Source: Methanococcoides sp.
GTDB taxonomy: Archaea; Halobacteriota; Methanosarcinia; Methanosarcinales; Methanosarcinaceae
DNA: 43,689 bases
Direction: 5' to 3'
Assembly (NCBI GenBank): GCA_021108185.1
Contig: JAIORJ010000080.1
Location: 1 to 43,689, forward strand
How positions within the stretch are numbered: the stretch's first letter is position 1; each line of letters opens with the position of its first letter. The position numbers were made by a program, and so were the translations under genes. Shown here in pieces: positions 3,183 to 38,633 of this stretch. Below the pieces are notes generated by a model, which did not search any database, was not told the DNA's origin, and worked only from the letters and a program-made list of their open reading frames with translations.

Positions 3183-4718
3183 TCACCCATACAGAACACA
3201 GTCAGCCTTGACATAAATAACAGAAACCCCATCAACGGCAAGTCTGTCCTTCACAAGCTCTTCAAGTTCCTTTATCCTGCTACCAGCAAGCTCCGGATCA
3301 TTGAACTCAAAGACAGTGACATCATCACAGAGCGCTTTTACAGCTTCCGTAAGGTCAGGTGTGGATTGTCCGCCTGTCATTGCTGCTGTCCTGTTGTCCA
3401 GCACCATAACGAGTACGTCACGTTTGGCCTCGACAGCATTTATCAGGCCTACGATGCCGGAATGTGACAGTCCGAAGTCACCTATGACAGCAACGGACTT
3501 TTTATCGAAACCTGCAGCTGTGGAAATAGCAGCACCAAGTGCAAATCCGACATCAACGGCTTCAAGGGGTGCAGGGGCACTGCGTATGGAGCAGCCCATA
3601 TCACCTGCTATGAAAATATCCAGATCATGAAGCATTCTGTAGACCGGCAGGAAAAGACAGTCCTCGCACAAAGAACGTGAACCTCTTCCCCCAATGGTCT
3701 CAATAAAAGTATATTTAGTTACCTTATCTTTATCGATGTTCTCGATCGCAAAACCGATCTGCTCTTTTTCAATGCGACCATATGGGAGATGCCCGCTCAT
3801 TTTTCCCAGTACGTTCTCACAGATACTGATGTGGGATTCGATAAAGGCTTCACTTTCCTCAATAACAAGAACTTTTTCATGGTCGGATATGAAATCTCTT
3901 AATTTCCTAACAGGAAGCGGAGATACAACATTAAGTGAAAGATGCGAAACCTCAAGCTGTCTTTCGGACAATAGCTCATCTACAAGCAAAGAGGGATAGC
4001 CAGAAGAAATTATGCCGGTCTTGCCTGCTTTAACATATCGTGTCAGAGAAGTGTTCTCTGCTTCATCCACAAGCAATGGCTGTACATTTATGTGAAAATG
4101 CTGGTGTTTGCCACGCATTGTCAGCTTCCAGACAGACCTGTCAAATGTAGCTTCTGTCTTCTTAATGTCCTCGGATCTTGTGACAGGACCTGTGGCTTTT
4201 TCCAGACGATCCGTTATCCTGACTATAACAGGGATCTTTGTACTTTCGGATAGTTCGAATGCTCTGATAAGTGACCTGTATGTAGCATCCGGGTTCGACG
4301 GGTCGAACACCGCGACCTCTGCCACCTCACCGTACCATCGTGAATCCTGCTCGTTCTGGGATGCTCTGACCCCCGGATCATCGCCTGCTATTATTACAAG
4401 TCCTGCGCCGATCGTATGTGTGACAGAGGTTATGAGAGGGTCGGAAAGGACATTCATGCCGACGTGTTTTGTGATGGTCAGTGCCCTTCTGCCTGAAACG
4501 GAAGCACCGAGTGCGGTCTCCAGTGCGGCCTTCTCATTGGTCATCCACAGAGTGGTGACGTCAGCGGGACTGTTCTTTTCAAAATGTTCTATCACGGCAG
4601 TGGTGGGAAACCCGGCAACTGCCGTTATCATCTTTACACCACAGTCCATGGCTGCAGCATAAAGGGCTTCAAGTCCCGTGACCTCCACAGGTCCATTTTG
4701 ACCCTCACGAGCGTTCAT
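3183..4718 (-). CDS. TPP-dependent enzyme, indolepyruvate ferredoxin oxidoreductase alpha (IorA)-like, no ferredoxin domain
   Basis: A 511-residue protein. The N-terminal half resembles the pyrimidine-binding domain of 2-oxoacid oxidoreductases, with an NEKAALETALGAS segment and the likely catalytic glutamate at 62. The C-terminal half has a thiamine diphosphate site: GDMGCSIRSAPAP at 372-384, then GDFGLSHSG at 413-421 and VLDNRTAAMTGGQ at 440-451, a GD...N motif. C351 and C354 (CEDC) lie where IorA has CPGCPHR. Typical IorA proteins are near 600 residues and end in a two-cluster ferredoxin domain, which is missing here, and no IorB-like gene lies beside it. Its ATG overlaps the stop of the marker 11 gene (ATGA), so the two are translationally coupled. 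The reaction is unknown; the pairing suggests a methanogen-specific step. Confidence 0.85.
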   Translation of the reverse strand: MNAREGQNGPVEVTGLEALYAAAMDCGVKMITAVAGFPTTAVIEHFEKNSPADVTTLWMTNEKAALETALGASVSGRRALTITKHVGMNVLSDPLITSVTHTIGAGLVIIAGDDPGVRASQNEQDSRWYGEVAEVAVFDPSNPDATYRSLIRAFELSESTKIPVIVRITDRLEKATGPVTRSEDIKKTEATFDRSVWKLTMRGKHQHFHINVQPLLVDEAENTSLTRYVKAGKTGIISSGYPSLLVDELLSERQLEVSHLSLNVVSPLPVRKLRDFISDHEKVLVIEESEAFIESHISICENVLGKMSGHLPYGRIEKEQIGFAIENIDKDKVTKYTFIETIGGRGSRSLCEDCLFLPVYRMLHDLDIFIAGDMGCSIRSAPAPLEAVDVGFALGAAISTAAGFDKKSVAVIGDFGLSHSGIVGLINAVEAKRDVLVMVLDNRTAAMTGGQSTPDLTEAVKALCDDVTVFEFNDPELAGSRIKELEELVKDRLAVDGVSVIYVKADCVLYG

Positions 4719-5623
4719 AACTTAGCTTCCAGATCGATTGATTCATCAGGACGGGCAAACCATGCAAGAGATGCCAATGCACCTATCACACCATTGCCAT
4801 CGAGCCAGATATCAACACCATTCTTGCGTGCATGTTCCATTGCAATATCCTTGGTCAGTTCACCGCTGCGACACATAGTACTGTATTCTTCCATATGGGA
4901 TGCCTCGAATGAGGAAAGTACCACCATACCGGTCTCATCGGACACACTGTATTTGAGCAGTGCGTTTTTCATGTCCTCAAGGAGCTCTTGCTTCGCTTCC
5001 TCGCTTACACAACCAAATTCAAGCACTGTGGATACGCAGTTCTGTGTTTTAGCCGAGACCGGGAACAATTGAACAAGGGAATGGGAAAGATAGACGGATT
5101 CATTGCTATTGAGTGCCGTAGCAATGTTGTGTGTCATTGACCACGTAGCTCCCTCTTCTTTCGTATCGGTATCATCTATCCCGATTAGTACACGCTGCCG
5201 TCTTGGAACGACTATGGTCCCTTTGGCAGCCTTTCCGCCACCTGAGTCACCCACATCATAGCGTAGCACTCCCTGTGCAAATGCCCTGCATTTCGTGGCA
5301 CCCACGCCTCCGCCTCCAAGACCTGCATAGGTGATGGATACCTCATCCCCGTCAACCACAACCGATTCGATCCCGGCAGCAGCCACTGATGGCTTAAGTG
5401 TAAGATCGCAAACATCAGCTTTCACGAGGTAGCGACTCATGTTACCCACTGCACGTGCCTTCTGTACAAGGGGTGACCGGGCATAATGGAAGCGTGACCA
5501 TGCAGCACCACTATAGCAATTCGTATGCTCGATGATCTCTGCATACTCGTTATTTTCATCACAGACCACATAGATTCCCCTGTAGGGGATCGTGTAAGGA
5601 TCTGTAAGTTCTACTTCTTTCAT
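4715..5623 (-). CDS. Methanogenesis marker protein 11
   Basis: The 302-residue protein has features I associate with methanogenesis marker 11: an N-terminal DPYTIPYRGIYVVCD segment, a Gly-rich GLGGGGVGATKCRAFAQ stretch at 101-117, IGIDDTDTKEEGATW starting at 147, and the C-terminal DIWLDGNGVIGALASLAW. The IGIDDTD motif is shared with the kinase-like domain of TiaS, the tRNA-Ile2 agmatinylcytidine synthetase, so an ATP-using activation step is plausible. The family is conserved in methanogens and its function is not settled. It is the first gene of a two-gene unit with the overlapping IorA-like TPP gene downstream. Its start has no clear ribosome site. Confidence 0.85.
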   Translation of the reverse strand: MKEVELTDPYTIPYRGIYVVCDENNEYAEIIEHTNCYSGAAWSRFHYARSPLVQKARAVGNMSRYLVKADVCDLTLKPSVAAAGIESVVVDGDEVSITYAGLGGGGVGATKCRAFAQGVLRYDVGDSGGGKAAKGTIVVPRRQRVLIGIDDTDTKEEGATWSMTHNIATALNSNESVYLSHSLVQLFPVSAKTQNCVSTVLEFGCVSEEAKQELLEDMKNALLKYSVSDETGMVVLSSFEASHMEEYSTMCRSGELTKDIAMEHARKNGVDIWLDGNGVIGALASLAWFARPDESIDLEAKL

Positions 5624-5701: not shown

Positions 5702-6391
5702 TCAGTTTATGTAGCCTTCCTCTTTCAAACTGACATACCTTCCGTCCCCGATGATCACATGGTCCAGGACACTGATGCCAAGGATCTTCCCGCCTTCAAC
5801 GAGCTTTTCCGTTACTGCTATGTCCTCCCTGCTTGGCGCGGGATCGCCGGAAGGGTGATTATGTGTTAGTATGACTGACGCTGAAGATTCCATGAGAGCT
5901 GATTTGAACACTTCACGCGGATGCACGATATTTGCGTTCAGGCTGCCAATGGAGATCACCTCTTCCTTGATGATATTGTTCTTCGTATCAAGATAAAGGG
6001 CTGTAAGATGTTCTTTTTTCAATTCGCGATGTCTGGGATAGAGCAGAGAATATACATCGTTTGCCGAGCGTATCTTCCTTTTAGGATCATCTGTGAAGAT
6101 CTCCAGCTTTCTCGCCAGTTCAAAGACCGCTGCTATCTGGGTAGCTTTGGCAGGACCGATACCTCTTATCTTTGTGAGCTGGGTGATGTTCGCCTGGCTC
6201 AATTGTTTCAGATTGTATTCCGAGAGGATACGACTGGACATACTGACCACGTTCTCGTCCTTTGAACCAGTACGAAGAATCACGGAAAGCAATTCCGCAT
6301 TGGAAAGAAAACCGGGACCATGTTTCAACAAGCGCTCTCTTGGCCGATCTTCCGATGGCATGTCATGTATTCGTACCTGATAACCACACAT
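5702..6391 (-). CDS. radC: RadC/JAB-domain protein
   Basis: A 229-residue RadC-family protein. Residues 13-40 match the family N-terminus (SEDRPRERLLKHG, then LSNAELLSVILRTG). A helix-hairpin-helix segment is at 75-92 (IRGIGPAKATQIAAVF). The C-terminal JAB/MPN domain carries a full metal motif, H177-x-H179, S187 and D190 in THNHPSGDPAPSRED. The biochemical role of RadC is unsettled; DNA repair or mobile-element biology are proposed for bacterial members. The ATG is preceded about 27 nt upstream by a TATA-like element (6414-6424) and has no Shine-Dalgarno sequence, so a leaderless mRNA is likely and supports this start. It is divergent from the MobB-MoaE gene. Confidence 0.92.
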   Translation of the reverse strand: MCGYQVRIHDMPSEDRPRERLLKHGPGFLSNAELLSVILRTGSKDENVVSMSSRILSEYNLKQLSQANITQLTKIRGIGPAKATQIAAVFELARKLEIFTDDPKRKIRSANDVYSLLYPRHRELKKEHLTALYLDTKNNIIKEEVISIGSLNANIVHPREVFKSALMESSASVILTHNHPSGDPAPSREDIAVTEKLVEGGKILGISVLDHVIIGDGRYVSLKEEGYIN

Positions 6392-6413
6392 GTAACAGAG
6401 TAATATTCTTTAG

Positions 6414-6424
6414 TGATATAAAGC
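6414..6424 (-). promoter_or_regulatory. TATA box of radC (leaderless)
   Basis: Minus strand GCTTTATATCA. Its centre is about 27 nt from the ATG at 6391, the usual archaeal TATA-to-start distance, so transcription should begin at or next to the start codon. Confidence 0.55.
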
Positions 6425-6490
6425 AATCGAAATTTAAGTTTAGGTTTTATATTTTTAGAAAGAATAAACTTTTGTTACCCGTTCACCGTA

Positions 6491-6500
6491 CTTATATATA
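6491..6500 (+). promoter_or_regulatory. TATA box of the MobB-MoaE gene (leaderless)
   Basis: CTTATATATA is centred about 27 nt before the ATG at 6523. This favours a leaderless transcript and selects the second of two close ATG codons (6517, 6523). Confidence 0.6.
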
Positions 6501-6522
6501 TTATTCAGGAATAGGAATGGGC

Positions 6523-7347
6523 ATGAAAGTCATTTCAGTCATAGGTTACAAGAACACAGGGAAAACGACCTTCGTTACTCGAATGGTAAAGGAACTTTCA
6601 GAACTTGGTCGTGTGGGAACGGTCAAACTGATGCTTGACCATCGTCTTGATGACCCGAATACTGATACCGGCAAACATTTTGATTCCGGTGCCGACATGG
6701 TCACTGCCGTCACGGACAGGGAACTGGTGACCATTAGCCGTACTCCTTCTTTTGAAAAAGCACTGGATGAGCTTGCTGATGCAGGAATGGATTTTGCCAT
6801 CGTTGAAGGTGCAAAGGACAGTGATGTTGCAAAGGTCGTTCTCGGGGATATGGATGAGGACGTTTCTAATGTTATTGCAAGACTTCCTGAAAAAACCGAG
6901 TGGGACCTTAAAGATATCGTTTCAATGCTAATGGAACAACCGGACCACGTTACGCTCAATTCCCTTATAGAAAAGGTCAGAGCAAATCCCAACATAGTAA
7001 AAGCGGGTGGAATTGGTACTTTTATCGGAATCGTAAGGGTGGATAACGAGGATTACGAGACCAAAATGCTCGAATTCGAGAAGTATGATAAGGTCGCAGA
7101 TGCCAGCATCCAAAAGATACGTGAAGAAATGATGCAACAGGATGGCATCATCGATGTTCTCATTCATCATAAAGCCGGAAGGATAATGCCACTTGAAGAT
7201 ATCGTATATATCGTGATAGCAGCAGGCCACCGCCAGCAACTGTTCGCAGCCCTCAGTGAGACACTGGAACGGGTAAAATCAGAAGTACCCATATGGAAAA
7301 AAGAGATAACCATCGATGGTAATTTCTGGGTCCATGATCATGCCTGA
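6523..7347 (+). CDS. MobB-MoaE fusion, molybdopterin cofactor synthesis
   Basis: About 274 residues from the chosen ATG (MKVISVIGYKNTGKT). The N-terminal 140 residues are MobB-like, a P-loop GTPase (GYKNTGKT at 8-15) that assists attachment of the guanine nucleotide to molybdopterin. From about residue 144 to the end the protein is MoaE, the large subunit of molybdopterin synthase: GGIGTFIGIVR, HHKAGRIMPLED, GHRQQLFAAL and the Lys-rich VPIWKKE catalytic end. MoaE works with the thiocarboxylated MoaD; a MoaD/ThiS-like gene lies at 14577. In methanogens the cofactor serves formylmethanofuran dehydrogenase. The open frame extends upstream to 6262, but that part overlaps radC and has no family match. 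The gene ends in a hairpin shared with the convergent kinase gene. Confidence 0.9.
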   Translation: MKVISVIGYKNTGKTTFVTRMVKELSELGRVGTVKLMLDHRLDDPNTDTGKHFDSGADMVTAVTDRELVTISRTPSFEKALDELADAGMDFAIVEGAKDSDVAKVVLGDMDEDVSNVIARLPEKTEWDLKDIVSMLMEQPDHVTLNSLIEKVRANPNIVKAGGIGTFIGIVRVDNEDYETKMLEFEKYDKVADASIQKIREEMMQQDGIIDVLIHHKAGRIMPLEDIVYIVIAAGHRQQLFAALSETLERVKSEVPIWKKEITIDGNFWVHDHA

Positions 7348-37391: not shown

Positions 37392-38561
37392 TTAATGTGA
37401 ACACACATTGCGGATCATTTCTTCGAGCCTTTCTCTCGAAAGACCTTTTTTGACCTCAGTACAGTTCTTTACCTTGGATATCAATGCGCATAGCTCATCT
37501 TGGTCAAGCTCATAGCCAAGGTCATTTACAATGCCTTTCAAAGCTTTTTTGCCAGTATGCTTGCCAACAACGAGGTTACGCTTCCCACCGACCATTTCAG
37601 GAGTGAAAAGCTCATATGTCCTTGGCTCTTCAAGAATTGCCATTACATGGATACCAGATTCATGCGTGAACGCATGCTTTCCAACAACTGCTTTATTAAC
37701 AGCTGTGGGAAGACCTGAATATTTTTCAAGTTTCCTGGAAATACTGTTCAATTTAGTCGTATCATACGTTTCAATACCATGCTGCACCCTCAATGCCACC
37801 AGCAGTTCCTCAAGAGATGCATTACCTGCACGCTCGCCGATGCCATTAATAGTTGTATGCAATTGCTTTGCACCCGCTTCAGCAGCAACCAACGTATTTG
37901 CAGTAGCCATCCCAAGATCATTGTGACAGTGGATACATATAGGCGTATTAACGACCTTCTTGACCTCACTAACAAGGTAGTGTGTTGTAGCAGGGCTCAA
38001 TATACCAATGGTATCAGCAATGCTTACATAGTCCACATGATAATCTTCTGCTGCCAGAAAGGCTCTCTTGAGGGTCTCAATGTTCGTCCTTGTAGCATCC
38101 TCAGCGGCAAACCTTACCTTGAGACCGTGGTCCTTTGCATGTTCGATGGCACCCATCGCGCAACTGAAAACATCAGCACAGCTTTTGTGGTATTTGAACT
38201 TTAAATGAAGATCTGACATAGCAATGAAAATGCTGACAATATCAACATCACAATCGATAGCTGCATCGACATCATTTATGACAGAGCGTGCAAGGCAGCA
38301 GATGTTGGCATCAAGACCCAAATTGCTGATCTCCTTGACGATATCTTTCTCCGAAGTCGAGACTACCGGAAAACCAGCTTCAATTACCTCAACGCCGATA
38401 GAATCAAGTTCAAGGGCAAGGTCGATCTTTTCATCTCTTGTAAAAGCAACACCAGGGGTTTGTTCGCCATCCCTTAATGTAACATCACATATCTCGATAT
38501 CAAGAGGACTCTGATCAATGAAGTTCATTAGTTCATTTTTAGAATAATCAGTATTTGCCAT
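37392..38561 (-). CDS. aksA: Homocitrate synthase AksA-type (isopropylmalate synthase family)
   Basis: About 389 residues from an ATG at 38559-38561 (MANTDYSKNE); the longer frame from 38633 runs into the nadK end. The acyl-transferase TIM barrel has CDVTLRDGEQTPGV, HCHNDLGMATAN, ATINGIGERAGN-like TTINGIGERAGNASLEE and HESGIHV. The C-terminal leucine-regulatory domain of LeuA is absent, as in AksA. AksA condenses 2-oxoglutarate with acetyl-CoA and extends the chain for coenzyme B. LeuA- or CimA-like function cannot be excluded by sequence alone. It follows nadK. Confidence 0.8.
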   Translation of the reverse strand: MANTDYSKNELMNFIDQSPLDIEICDVTLRDGEQTPGVAFTRDEKIDLALELDSIGVEVIEAGFPVVSTSEKDIVKEISNLGLDANICCLARSVINDVDAAIDCDVDIVSIFIAMSDLHLKFKYHKSCADVFSCAMGAIEHAKDHGLKVRFAAEDATRTNIETLKRAFLAAEDYHVDYVSIADTIGILSPATTHYLVSEVKKVVNTPICIHCHNDLGMATANTLVAAEAGAKQLHTTINGIGERAGNASLEELLVALRVQHGIETYDTTKLNSISRKLEKYSGLPTAVNKAVVGKHAFTHESGIHVMAILEEPRTYELFTPEMVGGKRNLVVGKHTGKKALKGIVNDLGYELDQDELCALISKVKNCTEVKKGLSRERLEEMIRNVCSH

Positions 38562-38633
38562 AATATTGATTCCCGTTCGAGTGTTTGAAAGGACACTATA
38601 TAAATATGTAGGTTTTGTCTCCAATATATCCAA

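Follow-up and report, generated by a model that had tools for sequence, protein, structure and literature searches.

A ferredoxin-less, IorA-like TPP enzyme linked to aks genes and methanogenesis marker 11: a candidate decarboxylase of 2-oxosuberate for coenzyme B synthesis by class II methanogens

Introduction

Methyl-coenzyme M reductase (MCR) takes its electrons from coenzyme B. In the synthesis of coenzyme B, 2-oxosuberate loses its C1 carboxyl to yield an aldehyde, and this step is the ThDP-type reaction of the pathway. To our knowledge, only the chain-elongation genes of coenzyme B have been assigned so far. A single set of synthase, isomerase and dehydrogenase acts in repeated rounds to lengthen 2-oxoglutarate to 2-oxosuberate (PMC3087415), and a paper from 2025 still calls the biosynthetic pathway unknown (PMC12068725). 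Our literature search, carried out mostly outside subscription journals, found no gene assigned to 2-oxosuberate decarboxylation, no paper naming methanogenesis marker 11 and nothing on DUF7714.

Here, we analyze a gene pair in a 43,689-nucleotide stretch of DNA from Methanococcoides sp. (contig JAIORJ010000080.1), which we call the window. The pair encodes marker 11 and a TPP enzyme that resembles IorA. We compare both proteins with IorA, ComDE, TiaS and the Aks enzymes, and we use their genomic neighborhoods across the Halobacteriota to ask what they do.

Results

The initial annotation of the window, made from the sequence, had read a start-stop overlap between the two genes, a TPP enzyme lacking both a ferredoxin domain and a partner subunit nearby, and an IGIDDTD motif in marker 11 that resembles the kinase-type domain of TiaS. 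All of these readings hold (Table 1). The TPP enzyme matches the Pfam domains POR_N and TPP_enzyme_C and no ferredoxin domain; IorB sits instead with a true IorA (602 aa, with the ferredoxin motif), which it follows on contig C11 of the same genome; and the motif, at residues 147-153, falls inside the TiaS_TCKD match. Over marker 11, the close relatives L039-L042 are 89-99% identical, and the two genes overlap or almost abut in most genera of Methanosarcinaceae and Methanotrichaceae. Elsewhere in the window, positions 698-2815 encode an unusual 705-aa fusion of a D-Ala-D-Ala ligase-like ATP-grasp with a peptidase of family S58 (DmpA-type), and positions 6262-7347 encode a MobB-MoaE fusion protein whose TTG start at 6262 probably lies upstream of the true one.

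Table 1. Features of the gene pair and of the AksA-type gene in the window
Feature	Position	Strand	Remark
IorA-like TPP enzyme, 511 aa, no ferredoxin domain	3183-4718	minus	candidate 2-oxosuberate decarboxylase of coenzyme B synthesis
Marker 11 protein (302 aa)	4715-5623	minus	N-terminal domain of unknown type, then TiaS-type kinase and ferredoxin-like domains
Overlap of marker 11 stop and TPP start, 4 nt, ATGA	4715-4718	minus	from the ORFs
IGIDDTD (residues 147-153) to Thr160 of marker 11	5144-5185	minus	D150, T152, D153 and T160 invariant; T160 aligns with TiaS Thr18
Glu62 codon of TPP enzyme, presumed ThDP-activating glutamate	4533-4535	minus	invariant in 29 sequences, also in IorA and L166
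Gly413-Asp414 codons, start of the GDG...N ThDP/Mg motif	3477-3482	minus	invariant
Stretch with Cys351, Cys354 and Cys376	3591-3668	minus	proximal [4Fe-4S] ligand pattern of 2-oxoacid:ferredoxin oxidoreductases, together with Cys507
Cys507 codon of TPP enzyme	3198-3200	minus	fourth cysteine of the proximal [4Fe-4S] pattern
Homologue of AksA-type homocitrate synthases; 413 aa if begun at the TTG, which probably precedes the true start	37392-38633	minus	probable AksA orthologue

The best family of the TPP enzyme is IOR_alpha (TIGR03336), with a score of 308.6 bits that is less than half of the equivalog cut-off (650.9) and a match that stops at profile position 534 of 595. Sulfopyruvate decarboxylase beta (TIGR03846) matches only weakly (16.4 bits; cut-off 221.5). 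Residues E62, G413, D414 and N442 are invariant across 29 sequences, giving the family the activating glutamate and the GDG...N motif of ThDP-dependent enzymes. Cysteines C351, C354, C376 and C507 are likewise invariant in the 29 TPP-family sequences, align with those of IorA and of OFOR beta, and are lost in L166. Because the four cysteines of the TPP-proximal cluster are kept, the window's enzyme is probably not free of every Fe-S cluster. Its AF2 model (pLDDT 91) resembles both OFOR alpha subunits and ThDP decarboxylases. In the Methanomicrobiales forms, a large part of the middle domain (about residues 217-339) is missing, with both ThDP half-sites retained.

The C-terminal ferredoxin motif, CxxCxxCxxxC, is present in 21/21 IorA copies versus 0/26 copies of the TPP family, and a maximum-likelihood tree separates the 21 ferredoxin-bearing IorA copies, as one clade with support 100/100, from the family that has no ferredoxin domain. 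The separate clade, together with the separate IorA-IorB genes of the same genome, rules out that the TPP enzyme is a true IorA. Within the TPP tree, L166 and L066 are basal and L166 forms a long branch; the copy in L069 (genome G150) is kept as ambiguous because it lies next to IorA in the tree and has no aks neighbors. The Methanococcoides genome also carries, at a separate locus (L008), a cluster of genes that we named cysteate synthase-like, ComD, ComE and Mmp16-like on the strength of their sequences and a published gene order. That gene order is the one in PMC12068725. The presence of ComD-ComE with these coenzyme M genes, along with the weak score above, excludes the TPP enzyme as ComDE.

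We surveyed 75 Halobacteriota genomes, with neighborhoods drawn from representatives of most methanogen genera of the phylum. A genome was counted as homoaconitase-bearing (AksE) if its small subunit scored at least 220 bits to A4, which holds for 36. In 25 of these 36 class II methanogen genomes, AksA, AksD or both are direct neighbors of the TPP gene; the 25 span Methanomicrobiales families, Methanocella-like genomes (f11), f2, f4 and one Methanosarcina-like genome. In the remaining 11 (seven Methanosarcinaceae genera and four Methanotrichaceae genomes), it lies beside marker 11 and not beside aks genes. The gene order in Methanomicrobiales is marker 11 - radical SAM - TPP - AksA - AksD - AksE - DUF7714 - AksF, although at some loci the ORF list omits a gene or the simple ORF calling has merged one. 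In the Methanocella-like genomes, f2 and f4, the TPP gene adjoins a divergent AksA, then AksD, and in the Methanosarcina-like locus L055 (genome G237) the order is marker 11, TPP, AksA. We estimate that, in a genome of ~2,000 genes, a random gene adjoins one given locus with a chance of about 1% or less. Since a single adjacency is such a rare event, its repetition across families is not due to chance, even if related genomes are not independent observations.

The small subunits of these clusters point to coenzyme B. A YLRT or YLRS loop is found in 10/10 aligned small subunits from TPP-aks clusters, and also in second copies of other class II genomes; LeuD-like copies instead have YLVI, YLTL or other loop sequences. 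In the M. jannaschii enzymes, the YLRT loop denotes homoaconitase and not isopropylmalate isomerase. In the window, the AksA-type gene lies 33 kb from the TPP gene, its product is 71% identical to the AksA that adjoins TPP in G237, and it is followed by NAD kinase, phosphatase and GAPDH genes in the same order as in L055. For the proteins called AksA here, it is the context that suggests AksA over LeuA, the family scores being under the curated cut-offs for both.

The ferredoxin-less TPP family is present in 36/36 AksE-bearing genomes; beyond them, it appears only in G219, which has divergent McrA-family genes, in G134 and, ambiguously, in G150. The Methanococcoides source genome itself gives no AksE signal, probably reflecting an assembly gap because its DUF7714 gene runs off the end of a contig (C71:3-470). 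We did not find the family in the MCR-positive genomes G020, G063, G025, G005, G007, G035, G118, G156 and G209, of which G007, G118 and G156 are only 84-86% complete. The TPP family is therefore a class II trait and not a universal one, and other lineages would need another decarboxylase. Genomes that have marker 11 or MCR and lack the TPP family also rule it out as a universal partner of either.

One MCR-negative genome retains the aks-TPP association. Genome G134 (98% complete) contains overlapping genes for AksA, AksD, AksE (with a YLRR loop), AksF and the TPP enzyme (L166:4991-10241), and our searches of it detected no McrA, no marker 11 above background, no DUF7714 and no member of the radical SAM family. 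The operon is used there without MCR. Its TPP protein keeps Glu62 and Gly413-Asp414, carries Asp in place of Asn442, and has lost the four cluster cysteines (to P, N, S and a gap); the long branch makes this alignment less certain than the rest. A TPP protein without the four Fe-S cysteines inside an Aks operon argues for a non-redox decarboxylation of the Aks product.

Marker 11 belongs to TIGR03280 (methan_mark_11), at 356 bits and above the curated cut-off of 255.8. In its model (pLDDT 92), ~150 C-terminal residues match TiaS (Foldseek E 3.7e-8). A single-sequence search of the PDB gave chance matches only, and an alignment profile was needed to align TiaS. Thr18 is the autophosphorylated residue of TiaS. 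The TiaS match and the invariant D150, T152, D153 and T160 make a kinase or an ATP-dependent ligase the likely activity of marker 11. Many Methanomicrobiales carry tandem marker 11 paralogues (~210 bits, under the family cut-off; L073, L083, L084, L081 and others).

Across the homoaconitase-bearing genomes, marker 11 and the TPP gene are no more than about 4.2 kb apart in 34/36, so that the pair is not separated in most genomes, one of the outcomes by which the initial annotation had proposed to judge its idea. The linkage is conserved and not due to chance. The other outcome, marker 11 occurring without the TPP enzyme, was found in part, namely in the MCR-positive G020 and G063 and in MCR-negative Archaeoglobi. 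Marker 11 has a separate location in G192 and G001, where the TPP gene accompanies the aks genes. Marker 11 and the radical SAM gene are adjacent in G150 and in MCR-negative genomes that we label Ferroglobus-like and Geoglobus-like.

The LipS2/BioB-like radical SAM gene thus adjoins marker 11 even in MCR-negative archaea (L085, L086, L070, L142, L067). Its family is absent from most MCR-free genomes and was found in each MCR-bearing genome searched other than the fragmentary G000 and G076, which gave weak matches only. DUF7714 (PF24830) is found in 35/35 AksE-bearing genomes searched (of 36), as well as in G209 and G219; of 14 control genomes, M. acetivorans alone has it. It is limited to class II methanogens and f31, and shows a distant similarity (58 bits) to the XcbA coenzyme M family. 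In most loci examined, DUF7714 (L072:8710-9510 and homologues) sits beside AksE or AksF.

Discussion

We consider it likely that, in class II methanogens, the TPP enzyme decarboxylates 2-oxosuberate for coenzyme B synthesis, with both the substrate and the non-oxidative outcome inferred from sequence and gene context. The assignment draws on operon membership, phylogenetic co-occurrence and intact ThDP residues, and on an enzyme that lacks the ferredoxin domain, has no gamma subunit nearby and is related to IorA yet separate from it. The role is narrowed to coenzyme B because the conserved neighbors are the 2-oxosuberate (Aks) genes. Counting against the assignment are the MCR-positive genomes that lack the family, the 11 genomes in which the TPP gene is apart from aks genes, and the use of the operon without MCR in G134. 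In the proposed pathway, AksA, AksD/E and AksF lengthen 2-oxoglutarate to 2-oxosuberate, and the TPP enzyme would remove the C1 carboxyl by non-oxidative, CoA-independent ThDP chemistry to yield 7-oxoheptanoate. The aldehyde carbon would then be converted to a thiol, for which DUF7714, encoded beside AksE, is a candidate enzyme. Finally, the carboxyl would be joined to threonine, accompanied by a phosphorylation, with marker 11 as a candidate for one of these ATP-dependent steps.

The main competing explanation is that the protein is a reduced 2-oxosuberate (2-oxoacid):ferredoxin oxidoreductase, which would use its proximal cluster and an outside ferredoxin to produce pimeloyl-CoA or pimelate rather than an aldehyde. 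Its OFOR-like fold agrees with this, as do the four invariant cysteines, which are the proximal-cluster ligands of IorA and OFOR beta and are kept in every methanogen copy. However, no gamma (IorB) subunit or domain is seen in the clusters, a large part of the middle domain is gone from the short forms, none of the four cysteines remains in the aks-linked L166 copy, and the established chemistry needs an aldehyde. The missing gamma subunit, the lost middle domain in Methanomicrobiales and the lost cysteines of L166 favor simple decarboxylation, and we regard the oxidoreductase as unlikely. Least probable of all, in our judgment, is that the enzyme is a paralogue (IOR or sulfopyruvate decarboxylase) acting on aryl or branched-chain 2-oxoacids, its neighborhood being incidental: IOR_alpha is the closest named family and a weak similarity to sulfopyruvate decarboxylase beta exists, but the genome has its own IorA-IorB and ComD-ComE elsewhere, the TPP family forms a separate clade, and the same neighborhood recurs across many families.

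The conserved spacing of the pair, with translational overlap in most Methanosarcinaceae and Methanotrichaceae, could also mean that the two proteins carry out one joint reaction, for example making a group and attaching it to an RNA, a protein or a cofactor. The initial annotation had suggested a joint role in making or repairing a methanogen-specific cofactor. The making part is well supported for the TPP enzyme by its Aks neighbors, which point to coenzyme B, and repair found no support. A single joint reaction is disfavored by G192, G001 and G134, where the TPP gene accompanies aks genes without an adjacent marker 11; by G063, G024, G034, G150 and G219, where marker 11 and the radical SAM gene have no neighboring TPP gene; and by the absence of the TiaS tRNA-binding domains from marker 11. 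We therefore think a joint reaction very unlikely. The retention of TPP with aks genes while marker 11 is elsewhere (G192, G001) favors separate steps of one pathway.

The preferred reading, a decarboxylase acting on the Aks product, leaves the other genes of the cluster with weaker assignments. DUF7714 is a candidate for the aldehyde-to-thiol enzyme of coenzyme B, judging by its neighbors and homology. For marker 11, a late ATP-dependent step of coenzyme B synthesis is plausible, an assignment weaker than that of the TPP enzyme, and we put its being a coenzyme B enzyme at about an even chance. Its operon membership speaks for this role, as does its position in G020 (L087), where mcrA follows ~3.4 kb downstream in the same orientation; the case is weakened by its persistence with the radical SAM gene in MCR-negative archaea. 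More tentatively, and at well short of an even chance, the whole Methanomicrobiales cluster may be a nearly complete class II coenzyme B pathway. The TPP enzyme would decarboxylate 2-oxosuberate; DUF7714, perhaps helped by the LipS2/BioB-like radical SAM protein, would make the thiol from the aldehyde; and marker 11 would activate the carboxyl with ATP for threonine joining, or phosphorylate it.

If the decarboxylase assignment is right, the next coenzyme B step gains a named gene whose substrate and product are defined, and the enzyme becomes a clear case of a ferredoxin-linked oxidoreductase scaffold reduced to a simple decarboxylase. The operon context also brings together a methanogenesis marker listed as 'function unknown', a radical SAM enzyme and DUF7714, and the whole-cluster reading, if true, would give every missing coenzyme B step a candidate gene.

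Compared with known systems, the TPP enzyme shares with IorA (TIGR03336) the order of Pyr, middle and PP domains, Glu62, the GDG...N motif and the four proximal-cluster cysteines; it differs in having neither the C-terminal ferredoxin domain nor an IorB partner, in scoring below half of the family cut-off, in forming its own clade and in lying beside aks genes. With ComDE, it would share the kind of reaction, a non-oxidative ThDP decarboxylation to the aldehyde precursor of a thiol coenzyme, and its short forms retain essentially only the two ThDP domains; in contrast, the sequence similarity is weak (16 bits), and a separate ComD-ComE accompanies the coenzyme M genes of the genome. With TiaS, the tRNA(Ile2) agmatidine synthetase, marker 11 has in common the TCKD and FLD domains, the DDTD motif and an equivalent of Thr18. 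Unlike TiaS, it has its own N-terminal domain of ~140 residues and lacks the OB and zinc-ribbon parts (only TCKD and FLD are matched in Pfam), which are the tRNA-binding parts of TiaS. AksA, AksD, AksE and AksF, with small subunits of the YLRT type, are the conserved operon partners of the TPP gene and make the presumed substrate of its enzyme.
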